Shown here: positions 27,720 to 34,312 of the stretch, in pieces
How positions within the stretch are numbered: the stretch's first letter is position 1
Layout: each line of letters opens with the position of its first letter
Source of the DNA: Thermochromatium tepidum ATCC 43061
Lineage (GTDB): Bacteria > Pseudomonadota > Gammaproteobacteria > Chromatiales > Chromatiaceae
Assembly (NCBI RefSeq): GCF_009664085.1
Contig: NZ_CP039268.1
Span: forward strand, 1,659,501 to 1,723,500
Reading direction: 5' to 3'
DNA: 64,000 bases
Translations under genes and position numbers: made by a program
The notes under the pieces: generated by a model
Told to the model about the DNA's origin: nothing
Database searches by the model: none
The model's input: only the letters and a program-made list of their open reading frames with translations

Positions 27720-29171
27720 ATGAAATTCGATGCGGTCCAGAAGGTCCTGGGGCTGCTCTTGACCCTCTTCAGCCTCAGCATGCTCCCGCCGGTGGTCGTC
27801 TCGCTCATCTACGATGAGGGCGACGTTGGACCCTTTCTGGCGGCCTTCACGCTGATCTTTGTCTTGGGGCTGCTGATCCTGCTGCCGGTGGTGCGCTCCC
27901 AGGAGGTGTTGCGAGTGCGCGATGGTTTTCTCGTCGTGGTGCTGCTCTGGACCATGCTCGGGCTGGCCGGCGCCCTGCCTTTCTGGCTGGCGCCCAATCC
28001 GGCCCTCTCGGCCACGGATGCGGTGTTCGAATCCATCTCGGGTCTGACCACGACCGGGGCTACGGTCATCATCGGGTTAGATGGCCTCCCCAAATCGATC
28101 CTCTTCTATCGCCAACAGCTCCAGTGGCTCGGCGGCATGGGCATCATCGTGCTGGCAGTGGCGGTGCTACCGATGCTCGGGGTCGGCGGGATGCAGCTCT
28201 TTCGCGCCGAGATGCCGGGCCCGATGAAGGAGTCCAAGCTCACACCGCGTATCACCGAGACCGCCAAGGCGCTCTGGTATGTCTATCTGTGGATGACGCT
28301 CCTCTGTGCACTCGCCTACTGGTGGGCCGGGATGACGGCCTTCGATGCCATCGGACATGCCTTCGCGACCGTGGCCATCGGCGGCTTCTCGACCCACGAT
28401 CTAAGCATCGGTTATTTCGACAATACCGCCATCGAGCTGATCGCCGTGGCCTTCATGACCCTGGCCGGGATGAGCTTTACCCTGCACTTCATGGTGTGGC
28501 GGCGCCAGGATCCGCGTCTGTATTTTGAGGACAGTGAATTCAGGCTCTATCTGTTGGTGCTCCTGACAGTCATCGCTATCACGACCCTGGCCCTCTATGA
28601 GGGCCGGGTCTATGCGACCTGGTGGGAGGCGTTCACCAAGGGCCTGTTCCAGGCGGTCTCGATCACCACGACCACCGGCTTTGCGACCGCCGAGTTCTAT
28701 ACCTGGCCGCCCTTTCTTCAGATCCTGCTGCTGTTGGCCAGCTTCATCGGCGGCTGCGCGGGCTCGACCGGCGGCGGAATCAAGGTCATCCGCTTCCTCT
28801 TGCTCATCAAGCAGGGCGTGCGCGAGATCGGGCGTCTGATCCATCCCAATGCCCAGATCCCGGTGCGAATCGGCGGTAAGACCGTCAATCATCGCGTAGT
28901 CGATGCGGTTTGGGGCTTCTTCTCGCTCTATGTGGCGAGTTTCATCCTCATGTATCTGCTACTCGCCGCCACCGGGCTGGACCTGGTGACGGCCTTTTCG
29001 GCGGTCGCGGCCTGTATCAACAACCTGGGACCGGGGCTGGCCACGGTCGGCCCAAATTATGCCGATCTCAACGATACGGCCAAGTGGATCCTCTGTGTGG
29101 CCATGCTGCTCGGACGGTTGGAGATCTTCACCGTGCTGGTGCTGCTGTCACCGACGTTCTGGCAGCGTTGA
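27720..29171 (+). CDS. trkH: Trk-type potassium uptake protein TrkH
   Basis: A 483-residue integral membrane protein, the usual TrkH length. Several pore-loop signatures typical of the four-repeat K+ channel fold are visible, such as SGLTTTGATV, TTTTGFATAEF and STGGGIKVIRF. TrkH forms the K+-translocating dimer regulated by cytoplasmic TrkA. trkA is not nearby. Confidence 0.93.
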   Translation: MKFDAVQKVLGLLLTLFSLSMLPPVVVSLIYDEGDVGPFLAAFTLIFVLGLLILLPVVRSQEVLRVRDGFLVVVLLWTMLGLAGALPFWLAPNPALSATDAVFESISGLTTTGATVIIGLDGLPKSILFYRQQLQWLGGMGIIVLAVAVLPMLGVGGMQLFRAEMPGPMKESKLTPRITETAKALWYVYLWMTLLCALAYWWAGMTAFDAIGHAFATVAIGGFSTHDLSIGYFDNTAIELIAVAFMTLAGMSFTLHFMVWRRQDPRLYFEDSEFRLYLLVLLTVIAITTLALYEGRVYATWWEAFTKGLFQAVSITTTTGFATAEFYTWPPFLQILLLLASFIGGCAGSTGGGIKVIRFLLLIKQGVREIGRLIHPNAQIPVRIGGKTVNHRVVDAVWGFFSLYVASFILMYLLLAATGLDLVTAFSAVAACINNLGPGLATVGPNYADLNDTAKWILCVAMLLGRLEIFTVLVLLSPTFWQR

Positions 29172-29430: not shown

Positions 29431-30864
29431 TCAAAGTCTGGCTTGACTGAAAATGAAATCAACCAGTGCATCGATCTCGGTCAATGGCAGGACGGGCGGA
29501 TGAGGGAAGACGGGCGGCGGATCATCGGTCGCGAGGGCGATGATCTCGGGATCGTCCGGATAGAACGGCGCCTGACCCAACGCGGCGCGATAGACCTCGA
29601 TCTTGGGATAGTGGGCGTGCTTGAAGCCCTCGACCAGAACCAGATCGAGCCGGTCGCGCTCAAAGCGTGCCAGCATTGCCTCTAGATCCGGGTCCTCACC
29701 CGTGCGGTCGTTCTCCATCTGCAAGGCCCAGCGCTCGCGTGAGGCGAGCAGGGTCTGGTCGGCCCCGGCGGCGCGGATCTCGTAGCTGTCCTTGCCGGGA
29801 CGATCCAGATCGAAGCTGTGGTGGGCGTGCTTGAGATAGCCGACGCGCAGCCCGCGCGACTGAAGTGCCGCGGTAAGACGTCGCAACAGCGTCGTCTTGC
29901 CGCTGCCGCTGGGCGCGACGAAGCCGACGACGGGGAGAGCGCGTCTGTCCGGGACCAGGGTTCTGGGGTCGGCGGACGGTTTTATTCGTAGGTTCGCCGG
30001 GTGTGCCTGATCGACATAGCGATCGCGCGCCGCCTTGGCGCGGGCGAAGATTTCGAACAGATGTTCGCCGTCGGCGCGGCGGATGCTCTCGGCCAGATCG
30101 GTCATCTCGACGCTGAACCGGGCCAGCATCGCGCTCAGTGCCTCGCGGTTGGCCAGACAGATGTCGCGCCACATGACCGGATTGCTGGAGGCGATGCGGG
30201 TGAAGTCACGGAAGCCACCGGCGGCATAGCGAAAGATCTCGTCGTTTTCGTGCATCCGCGCCAGTGAATCGACCAGTCCGAAGGCGAGCATGTGCGGCAG
30301 ATGACTGGTCGCGGCCAACACCTCGTCGTGATGGGCAACCGACATCGTCGCGACCTCAGCCCCGCATGCCTCCCACATGGCGGTTACCTGGACCACGGCC
30401 TCAGGGTCGGTCTCAGGCAAAGGCGTCAGGATCACACGCCGTTGCCGGTAAAGCTCGGCAAACGAGGCCTCCACCCCACTGTGTTCGGTGCCGGCGATCG
30501 GATGCCCGGGTACCAGACGCGGTGGCACGGCGCCAAAGACCGCACGCGCGTCCTCGACCACACTGCACTTGACGCTGCCTCCATCGGTGATGATGGCCTC
30601 AGGGCGCACCTGGTCGCGGATGGCCGCCAGCACCCCGCGCATGGCCCCAAGCGGCACCGCCAGGAACACCATGTCCGCCTCGTGCACCGCTTCGGCCGGG
30701 TTCTGGGTGATACGGTCGACCACGCCCAGTTCGAGCGCGCGCTCAAGATTGGCAAGCGAGCGCCCGCAGCCGATGATCTCACTAACGGCGCCGGCGGCCC
30801 GCAGCGCGCGCGCCAAGGAACCGCCGATCAATCCGACTCCGATGATCGCAAGCCGCTCGATCAT
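29431..30864 (-). CDS. tyrA: Prephenate dehydrogenase fused to MobB (TyrA-MobB)
   Basis: A single 477-residue frame. Residues 1-285 are TyrA: the NAD-binding GVGLIGG at 9-15, GHPIAGTEHSG around 120-130 and the dehydrogenase helical domain. It converts prephenate to 4-hydroxyphenylpyruvate for tyrosine. After a linker (about 286-308) residues 309-477 match MobB, the GTP-binding helper of molybdenum cofactor guanylation, with Walker A (APSGSGKTT, 317-325) and VEGFKHAHYPKIEVYR. No stop or start signal separates the two. Its ATG overlaps the hisC stop (ATGA). A sequencing error that removed a stop codon is the alternative. Confidence 0.88.
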   Translation of the reverse strand: MIERLAIIGVGLIGGSLARALRAAGAVSEIIGCGRSLANLERALELGVVDRITQNPAEAVHEADMVFLAVPLGAMRGVLAAIRDQVRPEAIITDGGSVKCSVVEDARAVFGAVPPRLVPGHPIAGTEHSGVEASFAELYRQRRVILTPLPETDPEAVVQVTAMWEACGAEVATMSVAHHDEVLAATSHLPHMLAFGLVDSLARMHENDEIFRYAAGGFRDFTRIASSNPVMWRDICLANREALSAMLARFSVEMTDLAESIRRADGEHLFEIFARAKAARDRYVDQAHPANLRIKPSADPRTLVPDRRALPVVGFVAPSGSGKTTLLRRLTAALQSRGLRVGYLKHAHHSFDLDRPGKDSYEIRAAGADQTLLASRERWALQMENDRTGEDPDLEAMLARFERDRLDLVLVEGFKHAHYPKIEVYRAALGQAPFYPDDPEIIALATDDPPPVFPHPPVLPLTEIDALVDFIFSQARL

Positions 30865-31973
30865 GACGCCAGCACGTCCTCGAAGGCGGCGATGAAGCGC
30901 GCGTTCTCCGACTCCAGCCCGATGCTGATGCGCAGATGGTTTGGCATCCCGTAGTTGCCAAGCGGGCGCACGATGACACCCCGCTTGAGCAGGGCCTCGT
31001 TGATGGGCGTAGCCGGGCGTCCACAGTCGACAGTGACGAAGTTGCCCACCGATGGGATGTAGGCGAGCCCGAGCCGCTCAAAGGCCGTGGTCAGTTGCTT
31101 CATCCCGGCACGGTTGAGTTCGACCGAGGCGCGTATGTGCTCAGGGTCGTTGATCGCCGCGATCGCGGCGGCCTGGGCCAGGGCATTGACGTTGAACGGC
31201 TGGCGCACCCGATTGAGCAGCTCGGCGATCCGCGGATCGCTGAGCGCATAGCCCACGCGCAGCGCCGCCAGACCATAGGCCTTGGAGAAGGTGCGGGTAA
31301 CGATCAGGTTGGGGAAGGTCTCGATCCAGTGGGTCGCGTCCGGGAAATCCGGCTCGGAAACATACTCGGTATAGGCCTCGTCGACCACGACGAGGCAGGT
31401 CTTGGGCAGTGCACCGATGAAGGACTTGAGCGGCGCGGCGGCCAGCCAGGTCCCGGTCGGATTGTTGGGGTTGGCGATCCAGACCACCCGCGTCCGGTCG
31501 GTGACCAGCCGCGCCATGGCCTCCAGGTCATGGCCATAGTCGCGGGCCCGCGCCACACGCGCCTTGGCCCCGACCGACTGGGTCGCGATCGAATAGACGG
31601 CGAAGGCATACTCAGAAAACACGGACTCGGCGCCGGGTTGCAGGAAGACACGCGCGATCAGATCCAGCACATCGTTGGATCCGTTGCCGATCGTCACGGC
31701 GGCGGGCGAGAGCCCATGATGCTCGGCCAGGGCGCGGCGCAGCGCAAATCCGCCGCCATCTGGATAGCGACCCAGCTCAGCGAGTGCGGTCTCGATCGCC
31801 GCACGCGCACGCACGCCCGGACCCAATGGATTTTCGTTCGAGGCCAGCTTGATCGAGTCGCTGATACCCAGTTCGCGTTCCAGCTCTGAGATGGGTTTGC
31901 CGGGCACATAGGGCGTGAGTCCGGCGATCCAGGGGGCTGCCAGTGACTGGAAGGGGTTGTCGGCTTGATGCAT
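30861..31973 (-). CDS. hisC: Histidinol-phosphate/aromatic aminotransferase
   Basis: A 370-residue class I/II PLP aminotransferase. SNENPLGPG lies near the N-terminus, VVDEAYTEY in the middle, and the cofactor lysine in TRTFSKAYGLAALRVGY. The ATG at 31973 is chosen because the upstream frame belongs to the end of pheA on the other register. The position between pheA and tyrA suggests that it transaminates phenylpyruvate and hydroxyphenylpyruvate, although the HisC family also serves histidine synthesis. It overlaps tyrA by 4 bases. Confidence 0.92.
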   Translation of the reverse strand: MHQADNPFQSLAAPWIAGLTPYVPGKPISELERELGISDSIKLASNENPLGPGVRARAAIETALAELGRYPDGGGFALRRALAEHHGLSPAAVTIGNGSNDVLDLIARVFLQPGAESVFSEYAFAVYSIATQSVGAKARVARARDYGHDLEAMARLVTDRTRVVWIANPNNPTGTWLAAAPLKSFIGALPKTCLVVVDEAYTEYVSEPDFPDATHWIETFPNLIVTRTFSKAYGLAALRVGYALSDPRIAELLNRVRQPFNVNALAQAAAIAAINDPEHIRASVELNRAGMKQLTTAFERLGLAYIPSVGNFVTVDCGRPATPINEALLKRGVIVRPLGNYGMPNHLRISIGLESENARFIAAFEDVLAS

Positions 31974-32016
31974 GACGGATATCCAAAAAATTACGTTCAA
32001 TTGGGATCGTGCGCCT

Positions 32017-33120
32017 TCAGAGCACCGCAACCGGGTAGGAGCCCAGCACCTTGAACAGCAGGGCCTCCTGTTCAAGGATCTGCAGGGCGGCGGCGACCTC
32101 GGGATCCTGGCGATGGCCGAGGATATCGATGAAAAAGACATAGTCCCAGAGGCCGCGACGCGAGGGGCGGGACTCGATGCGGCTCATGCTGATGCCGTGC
32201 TTGGACAGTGGCGCGAGCAGGTGATATAGACCACCTGCCTGATTCTTGCACGAGAGCAGCAGGCTGGTTTTGTCTTGACCGCTCGGCGGCGCGTCCTGCT
32301 GGCCGATGACCAAAAAGCGTGTGGTGTTGCTCGGCTCATCCTCGATACGCTCGGCCAGTACCCCGAGTTTGTAGATCTCGGCGGCCTGGAGACCCGCGAC
32401 GGCCGCGGCCTCTGGATCCCCGGCCACCAGACGCGCCGCCTCGGCATTGCTGCCGACTGGCAGCCGCTCGGCGCTCGGTAGATGGCGGTCGAGCCATTCG
32501 CGGCACTGGGCCAACGACTGCTGATGCGAATACACCCGCCGGATGCTCGCCAGATCCGGCGCCTTGCTCAACAGGTGCTGATGGACGCGCAGACAGACCT
32601 CGCCCGTGATCATCAGCGGTGAGCTCATGAACAGATCGAGCGTGTGACTGACCACGCCCTCGGTCGAGTTCTCGACCGGCACCACCCCAAAGTCGCAGGC
32701 GCCGGCCTCGACCTCACGAAAGATCTCGTCGAGGGTGGCCATGGCCTGGGTCACCACCGAATGGCCGAAATGCTTGATCGCCGCCGCCTGGGTGAAGGTG
32801 CCCTCGGGCCCCAAAAAGGCGGCCTTGAGCGGACGCTCAAGGGCCAGACAGGCCGACATGATCTCACGGAACAGACGCGCGACCTCCTCGCCATCGAGTG
32901 GTCCCGGATTGGCCTCCTTGATCCGGCGCAGGACGGCGACCTCGCGCTCGGGGCGATAGAATTGCACCGATCCACCCCGCGCCTCGGTCTTGATGCGCGC
33001 GACCTGCTGGGCACAGCGGGCGCGCTCGCTGATCAGCCGCAGGATCTCCAGATCGATGGCGTCGATGCGGTCGCGCACCGCCGCCAGCGCCTGGTGTTCC
33101 TGATTGGCGCTCTCGCTCAT
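32017..33120 (-). CDS. pheA: Bifunctional chorismate mutase/prephenate dehydratase
   Basis: A 367-residue P-protein. An N-terminal AroQ-type chorismate mutase helix bundle (RDRIDAIDLEILRLISERA) is followed by the dehydratase domain (GPEGTFTQAAA; ENSTEGVVSHTLD). A C-terminal ACT domain (ESRPSRRGLWDYVFF) normally gives feedback inhibition by phenylalanine. It makes phenylpyruvate from chorismate. It starts 22 bases after serA and is followed by hisC. Confidence 0.95.
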   Translation of the reverse strand: MSESANQEHQALAAVRDRIDAIDLEILRLISERARCAQQVARIKTEARGGSVQFYRPEREVAVLRRIKEANPGPLDGEEVARLFREIMSACLALERPLKAAFLGPEGTFTQAAAIKHFGHSVVTQAMATLDEIFREVEAGACDFGVVPVENSTEGVVSHTLDLFMSSPLMITGEVCLRVHQHLLSKAPDLASIRRVYSHQQSLAQCREWLDRHLPSAERLPVGSNAEAARLVAGDPEAAAVAGLQAAEIYKLGVLAERIEDEPSNTTRFLVIGQQDAPPSGQDKTSLLLSCKNQAGGLYHLLAPLSKHGISMSRIESRPSRRGLWDYVFFIDILGHRQDPEVAAALQILEQEALLFKVLGSYPVAVL

Positions 33121-33142
33121 GTCGTCTTCCGCCCTCGCCGAC

Positions 33143-34312
33143 TCAAGCGTCGAGCTGGCGCACCGAAAGCACGCCATCGATGGCCTGGATCTGGGCAAGC
33201 GTTGCCTCGGGACAAGGCTGATCGACATCGATCAGGGTCACGGCGATGTCGCCGCGCGAGCGATTGAGCATATCGACGATATTCAAACCGGCGGCCGCCA
33301 GATCGGTCGAGATCTGTCCCACCATATTGGGCACATTGCTGTTGACGATGGTCAGTCGATAACCCTCGGTGCGCGCGAGGATGATGTCCGGGAAATTGAC
33401 CGAGTTGGTGATGTTGCCGTCCTCCAGATAGTCACGGATCTGATCGGCCACCATGATCGCACAGTTGTCCTCGGCCTCCTTGGTCGAGGCACCGAGATGC
33501 GGCAGGGCGATGACCCGCGGATGGCCCTTGAGCCTGTTGTTCGGGAAATCGCAGCAATAGGCATAGAGGTGGCCTGCATCGAGCGCCGCGATCACCGCCT
33601 CGTCGTCGAGGATACCCTGACGCGAGAAGTTCAGCAGCACCGCACCCTTGGGTAGGACCCGAATCCGCTCGGCGTTGATCATGTTCCGCGTCTGATCGGT
33701 GAGTGGGACATGGAAGGTCACGAAGTCCGAGCGCGCGAGCAGGTCGTCGAGGCTGAGTGCCTGCTTGACGTCGCTCGCCAACTGCCAGGCGCGCTGCACG
33801 GTGATGGTCGGGTCATAGCCGATGACCTGCATCCCGAGCGCACGCGCGGCATTGGCGACCCGGACACCGATCGCCCCCAGACCCACGACCCCAAGGGTGC
33901 GCCCCGGCAGCTCAAAGCCGACGAAACGCTTCTTGCCGGCCTCGACCGCCTCATGGATGGCGGCATCGTCGCCCTGAAGCTCGCAGGCGAACCGCCAGGC
34001 CTGGGCGATGTTGCGCGCCGCCATCAGCATCGCGGCGAGCACCAGCTCCTTGACCGCGTTGGCATTGGCGCCCGGGGCGTTGAAGACGACCACGCCGCGT
34101 CTGGTCATCTCGGCCACGGGCACATTGTTGGTGCCCGCGCCGGCGCGCCCGATGGCCTTGACCGAGGCAGGGATCTCCATGTCGTGCATGTTGGCCGAAC
34201 GTACCAGGATGGCATCGGGATTGGCGATCTCGGAGGCGATCTCGTAGCGCTCGCGCGGCAGGCGCTCCAGGCCGACCACCGAGATATTGTTGAGCGTCTG
34301 GATTTTGAACAT
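33143..34312 (-). CDS. serA: D-3-phosphoglycerate dehydrogenase
   Basis: A 389-residue protein of the D-isomer 2-hydroxyacid dehydrogenase family. It has GRAGAGTNNV, the Rossmann motif GVVGLGAIGVRVANAA, and a catalytic His in LPHLGAST, followed by a short C-terminal ACT domain. It starts serine biosynthesis from 3-phosphoglycerate. It is the first gene of serA-pheA-hisC-tyrA, where many gammaproteobacteria have serC. Confidence 0.92.
   Translation of the reverse strand: MFKIQTLNNISVVGLERLPRERYEIASEIANPDAILVRSANMHDMEIPASVKAIGRAGAGTNNVPVAEMTRRGVVVFNAPGANANAVKELVLAAMLMAARNIAQAWRFACELQGDDAAIHEAVEAGKKRFVGFELPGRTLGVVGLGAIGVRVANAARALGMQVIGYDPTITVQRAWQLASDVKQALSLDDLLARSDFVTFHVPLTDQTRNMINAERIRVLPKGAVLLNFSRQGILDDEAVIAALDAGHLYAYCCDFPNNRLKGHPRVIALPHLGASTKEAEDNCAIMVADQIRDYLEDGNITNSVNFPDIILARTEGYRLTIVNSNVPNMVGQISTDLAAAGLNIVDMLNRSRGDIAVTLIDVDQPCPEATLAQIQAIDGVLSVRQLDA

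Follow-up and report, generated by a model that had tools for sequence, protein, structure and literature searches.

A fused tyrA-mobB gene in Thermochromatium tepidum and its probable origin from two neighbouring genes

Gene fusion is commonly taken as a sign that the joined proteins cooperate. In the 64,000-nucleotide stretch of the Thermochromatium tepidum genome that was analysed here (the window), prephenate dehydrogenase (TyrA), the enzyme of the final step in tyrosine synthesis, was predicted to be joined to the molybdenum cofactor helper MobB, a partner with which we know of no metabolic link, and the locus offers a good opportunity to ask whether function can be read from fusion. Is the fusion real, how did it arise, and does it speak for a working connection between its halves? 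We consider it highly probable that the gene encodes a single bifunctional protein, the product of joining two neighbouring genes.

The fused gene and its protein

TyrA and MobB are encoded in one continuous frame that opens with ATG and runs without an internal stop on the minus strand, which the original prediction had left unstated (Table 1). The product has a computed mass of 52.1 kDa, against the 52 kDa or so that had been expected, and contains three Pfam domains, all far above their cut-offs: PDH_N at residues 17–171 (E-value 1e-39; 136 bits against a cut-off of 26.5), PDH_C at 177–274 (2.2e-28; 99 against 22) and MobB at 312–447 (2.7e-47). These identify the first half as TyrA, and the second half is assigned to MobB by both PF03205 (160.4 against 26.6) and TIGR00176 (130.3 against 76.2). 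Profile searches of the whole genome (2,958,290 bases in one contig, 99.97% complete) gave a single match each to PF02153 and PF03205, both within the fused gene, and thus revealed no second tyrA or mobB able to free one of the halves.

Table 1. Position, strand and basis of the features described at the tyrA-mobB locus of the window
Feature	Position	Strand	Basis or remark
tyrA-mobB fused gene, 477 aa	29431..30864	-	Open frame and Pfam; sole PF02153 and PF03205 match in genome
TyrA half, residues 1–286 (PDH_N, PDH_C)	30007..30864	-	Pfam and residue alignment
Linker, residues 287–308, about 22 residues	29941..30006	-	Boundaries chosen by the authors; no in-frame ATG, GTG or TTG; pLDDT <50 at 288–307
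Lost ATGA stop/start overlap, approximate place	29960..29972	-	Net 2-nt deletion relative to four relatives
MobB half, residues 309–477 and stop	29431..29940	-	Pfam, P-loop, alignment to E. coli MobB
hisC-like ORF, upstream neighbour	30861..32141	-	Named by inspection; actual start probably internal to the listed ORF
pheA-like ORF, same gene string	32017..33228	-	Named by inspection
serA-like ORF, same gene string	33143..34312	-	Named by inspection
Convergent ORF, TrkH-type transporter-like, downstream	27720..29171	+ (opposite to tyrA-mobB)	Inspection only

Both halves keep the residues by which they can be compared with characterised proteins. In the TyrA half, all positions aligned with S126, H147, H217 and R250 of the Aquifex aeolicus prephenate dehydrogenase, residues that we presume to have functional roles in that enzyme, are conserved. 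The MobB half keeps PSGSGKTT in its P-loop region (from residue 318) and aligns with E. coli MobB (1NP6/1P9N) across residues 2–164 of 169. An AlphaFold model of the protein is good for the TyrA half, with pLDDT above 90 across most of it, and poor for the MobB half because only two alignment rows cover that part; between the two, pLDDT drops below 50, as in a flexible linker.

The prediction of a short linker without an internal ribosome site agrees with the absence of any in-frame ATG, GTG or TTG for 55 codons upstream of the MobB core in the window genome. An internal restart that would yield a separate MobB was considered and judged unlikely: because the nearest in-frame start lies 55 codons upstream, inside TyrA, such a product is hardly possible.

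The junction in close relatives and the number of fusions

The genus comparison comprised eight genomes, the window genome (G000) and G001 to G007, among which are A. palmeri (G002), A. humboldtianum (G004) and Allochromatium warmingii (G007). In all eight tyrA and mobB are adjacent or fused, so that the slot behind tyrA is filled by mobB throughout. The fusion, which would have been read as an artefact or a private rearrangement had it been absent from all relatives, occurs in two of them: the match spans query residues 1–477 in the window genome and 2–472 in A. warmingii, where a single 460-aa frame carries the identical domain order, confirmed by Pfam. A second PF03205 match was seen for A. 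warmingii in the profile search of the family; the protein search found one MobB.

The remaining six genomes carry separate, adjacent genes. In five of these (G001, G002, G003, G004 and G006) the tyrA stop and the mobB start overlap exactly in the sequence ATGA, an arrangement known from translationally coupled genes. The mobB gene of G005 has its nearest in-frame ATG 31 nt past the tyrA stop and another one further upstream, overlapping tyrA; either may be its true start. Compared to G001, G002, G004 and G006, the window genome has a net deletion of 2 nt at the junction, and both the stop and the ATG are gone (the gap from tyrA to the MobB core also reads 66 versus 71 when the core is counted one codon earlier, the net deletion being 2 nt). 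The corresponding net deletion in A. warmingii, obtained by arithmetic from the junction comparison, is 47 nt, and the linkers of the two fused species are unlike in both length and sequence. Outside the genus the two genes can lie far apart, as in two relatives with single-contig genomes (2.32 versus 3.50 Mb in G500; 4.63 versus 0.08 Mb in G030). The group as a whole therefore displays side by side the states of distant (in other genera), neighbouring, ATGA-overlapping and fused genes.

The original prediction of a true fusion with a short linker, at a place where some relatives have an aroA-like ORF, stands, but it offered no origin or mechanism. We propose that the inner Allochromatium group, and probably the genus as a whole, descends from an ancestor with a serA-pheA-hisC-tyrA string and mobB as the next gene after tyrA, the tyrA stop overlapping the mobB start as ATGA. 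In the lineage of the window, the stop and the mobB start codon would then have been lost, and the frames aligned, through a net 2-nt deletion together with point changes; a net 47-nt deletion would have had the equivalent effect in A. warmingii. Coupled translation would already have yielded both proteins together before the fusion, which may therefore have changed dosage little and been fixable at low cost. At the other end of the fused gene, the hisC-like ORF and the tyrA ATG share 4 nt (30861–30864 of the window), thus overlaps extend upstream in the gene string.

The ATGA state is not certain to be ancestral for the whole genus, since TyrA of G003 and G005 is less similar to that of the window (79% identity) than is TyrA of three genomes from other genera in which mobB lies elsewhere (83–84% in G403, G030 and G500). 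We nevertheless argue that the tyrA-mobB arrangement of G003 and G005 is the same as in the rest of the genus, because the downstream neighbour is shared: on inspection, ORFs resembling TrkH-type transporters hold the same downstream place in the unfused members of the genus, including these two.

In a tree of the rpoB-rpoC region (12,075 gapless columns) the two fused species do not group as sisters, and a single clade of the pair is rejected (AU p 2.3e-5); two separate fusions of the same gene pair are therefore most likely on these sequence comparisons. This longer region was used because single-gene protein trees placed the fused species poorly; under RY coding, applied because base composition is uneven, the single clade is also rejected (p 0.014). 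The best protein trees of rpoB, tyrA, mobB and serA likewise hold the fused species apart. The position of each is less consistent: in the rpoB-rpoC DNA tree the window species is outermost of the inner six and A. warmingii lies beside G002, while in the conflicting rpoB protein and tyrA+mobB trees A. warmingii is the outermost of the six. A passage of PMC7427194 places T. tepidum within Allochromatium, with A. warmingii more distant.

A single fusion, in the common ancestor of the inner Allochromatium species, that was later undone by a split in the lineage leading to G001, G002, G004 and G006 is in our judgement unlikely. One old fusion and one later split amount to an equal number of events on the trees, and the DNA of the fused genes themselves does not reject a single clade (AU p 0.226 for tyrA+mobB, 0.0995 with positions 1 and 2 only, 0.058 for mobB alone); the pheA and hisC protein trees even unite the fused species, with weak support (37/68 and 38/55). 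However, such a split would have had to recreate the ATGA overlap in a form similar to the one in G003, which is more distant, and no clear extra sequence is common to the two linkers.

In the serA protein tree (loci L047–L057) the window species lies on one branch with G003 and G005 (100/99), contrary to the rpoB-rpoC tree. Transfer or recombination at serA would be a possible explanation for that gene.

Constraint on the two halves and the case for a functional link

Ratios of dN/dS were obtained from 15 pairs among six of the eight genus genomes, those of several A. warmingii pairs being rough because dS exceeds 1. For TyrA they range from 0.050 to 0.102 in pairs with a fused member, compared to 0.058–0.104 in unfused pairs, and for MobB from 0.063 to 0.192 compared to 0.103–0.175. 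Both halves thus look constrained by purifying selection. Decay of one of the halves was also considered; the dN/dS ratios and the kept motifs speak against it.

MobA is found above its cut-off in all eight genus genomes and the window genome contains five PF00384 matches, so that with MobA and molybdoenzymes of this family present MobB has partners and work to do. According to parts of PMC13197769, MobB is needed for a tungsten enzyme of Methylorubrum extorquens and not for the molybdenum route. From conserved residues and constraint we infer that the TyrA half is catalytically active and that the MobB half is active as well. The former would be expected to form the usual dimeric dehydrogenase core, and the MobB half, on its flexible linker, would be expected to serve MobA and MoeA in the production of guanylated molybdenum cofactor. 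The two halves most likely act independently, as parts of a two-headed protein.

Alternatively, a benefit of the link may explain why the pair was fused on two occasions. The half with the MobB GTPase might sense the demand for GTP or cofactor and alter TyrA, or one half might otherwise regulate or position the other, TyrA for example anchoring MobB; selection would then have driven the fusions and thereby connected the synthesis of tyrosine with the guanylation of molybdenum cofactor in these phototrophs. Such coupling would fit the probable occurrence of two fusions of the same pair, the adjacency or fusion of the two genes in every genus member, and the title of PMC10666635, according to which coupled pairs often code for subunits of heteromeric complexes. 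We regard it as very unlikely, however, as the linkers of the two fused species are unlike in length and sequence and that of the window is predicted to be disordered, MobB has also been joined to an unrelated aldolase within the family (see below), and no pathway link between TyrA and MobB is known to us.

That the fusion reflects an error in the sequencing or assembly of the window genome, such as a missed stop or frameshift, is barely credible: with a one-base indel in the linker corrected, mobB would still lack a start codon of its own, the record of a second species shows the identical domain order, and the completeness of the single-contig genome also argues against it.

The independence of the halves therefore remains our preferred reading. 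Given a probable origin by small deletions, and given that many family members have MobB joined to an aldolase, an unrelated enzyme, the TyrA-MobB fusion is by itself weak evidence of a functional link. It suggests that a small deletion can merge two overlapping genes into one that encodes a single protein, as probably happened on two occasions here, without a known link between the partners, and it advises caution in prediction of function from fusions.

Spread of the fusion and comparison with other fusions

Among 55 relatives a match across both halves was found in two, the window species and A. warmingii. The matches listed for 146 family genomes (six of them of the genus) include no further TyrA-MobB match beyond these two, and among those listed for 369 class genomes and 398 phylum genomes only the window genome displays one. 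Since a fused protein is expected near the top score, absence from the matches listed at these three levels is still informative, at least for TyrA types more than weakly similar to that of the window, as others joined to MobB might escape the search. The method does detect TyrA in fused form: the phylum matches listed include TyrA within open frames of 740–841 aa, which by their length, if not by a domain scan, fit TyrA-AroA fusions. Our searches of an open-access library of papers gave no description of a TyrA-MobB fusion.

The best 25 of 38 NCBIfam families matched include no model for the combination. The closest model for the TyrA half is that of TyrA-AroA (NF011381), with 386.5 bits over residues 2–284 only, which does not reach the cut-off of 902; MobB-MoeA (NF011060) matches the MobB part only, with 195.6 bits against a cut-off of 532. 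The place of AroA at the equivalent operon position, pointed out in the original prediction, was recovered in relatives: behind tyrA, 6 of 22 loci from outside the genus (G012, G014, G018, G019 and G027 in the family, G054 outside it) carry an aroA-like ORF, recognised by the motif VPGDKSI, which we take to be that of EPSP synthase (AroA), rather than by domain scan.

TyrA-AroA fusions (the EPSP synthase fusion called tyrA-aroF in PMC1173090) resemble the protein of the window in that the partner follows TyrA at its C-terminus, at a position where some relatives have an aroA-like ORF, and differ in that MobB lies outside aromatic biosynthesis. The sections of PMC1173090 that treat TyrA fusions name aroQ, aroF (EPSP synthase), hisHb, ACT and REG as partners (AroQ-TyrA, HisHb-TyrA, TyrA-ACT, TyrA-REG), along with a four-domain TyrA-AroQ-PheA-ACT, and describe each of the catalytic partners as relevant to aromatic biosynthesis. 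They present TyrA as a frequent fusion partner and describe recent fusions confined to one organism or to a few near relatives, much like the case described here; MobB is absent from the partners in section 21 of that paper. The TyrA-MobB protein thus extends the partner range of TyrA beyond the aromatic pathway.

MobB is likewise joined to other proteins in MobB-MoeA (NF011060), MobA-MobB (NF011056, NF011057 and NF011059) and MobB-FeS (NF011062 and NF011063), and it is the MobB part of these that the second half of the window protein matches. Their partners differ, being by their NCBIfam names cofactor-pathway or iron-sulfur domains, and the window protein does not reach the combined cut-offs. 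MoeA-MobB fusions in several gammaproteobacteria are mentioned in part of PMC13197769.

Within the same bacterial family MobB has also been joined to a class II aldolase, an enzyme for which we know of no cofactor role. MobB matches occur in 127 of the 146 family genomes, and among 27 hand-chosen loci with MobB in a long frame 18 (L088, L091, L097, L116, L134, L136–L138 and L140–L149) carry the aldolase domain behind MobB in the same frame, as detected by a model built from three of those 18 loci. Pfam confirmed MobB and class II aldolase in all seven of the 18 that were scanned. As in the window, MobB is attached to an enzyme, but it is N-terminal there and C-terminal in the TyrA-MobB protein. 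The aldolase partner had no match in any of the eight genus genomes, a result that carries no weight because the search was run without a positive control. A search of the open-access library gave no paper on the MobB-aldolase fusion.

Two further MobB loci of the family are unusual. One 373-aa open frame of G009 (L118:536-1654, minus strand) contains HupH_C and MobB; start codons lie close before MobB, and the two may be separate proteins. In G440 (L150, contig C629) the MobB match falls in two pieces, 1–77 and 77–133, separated by a gap within a single 326-aa open frame, possibly reflecting an insertion within MobB.
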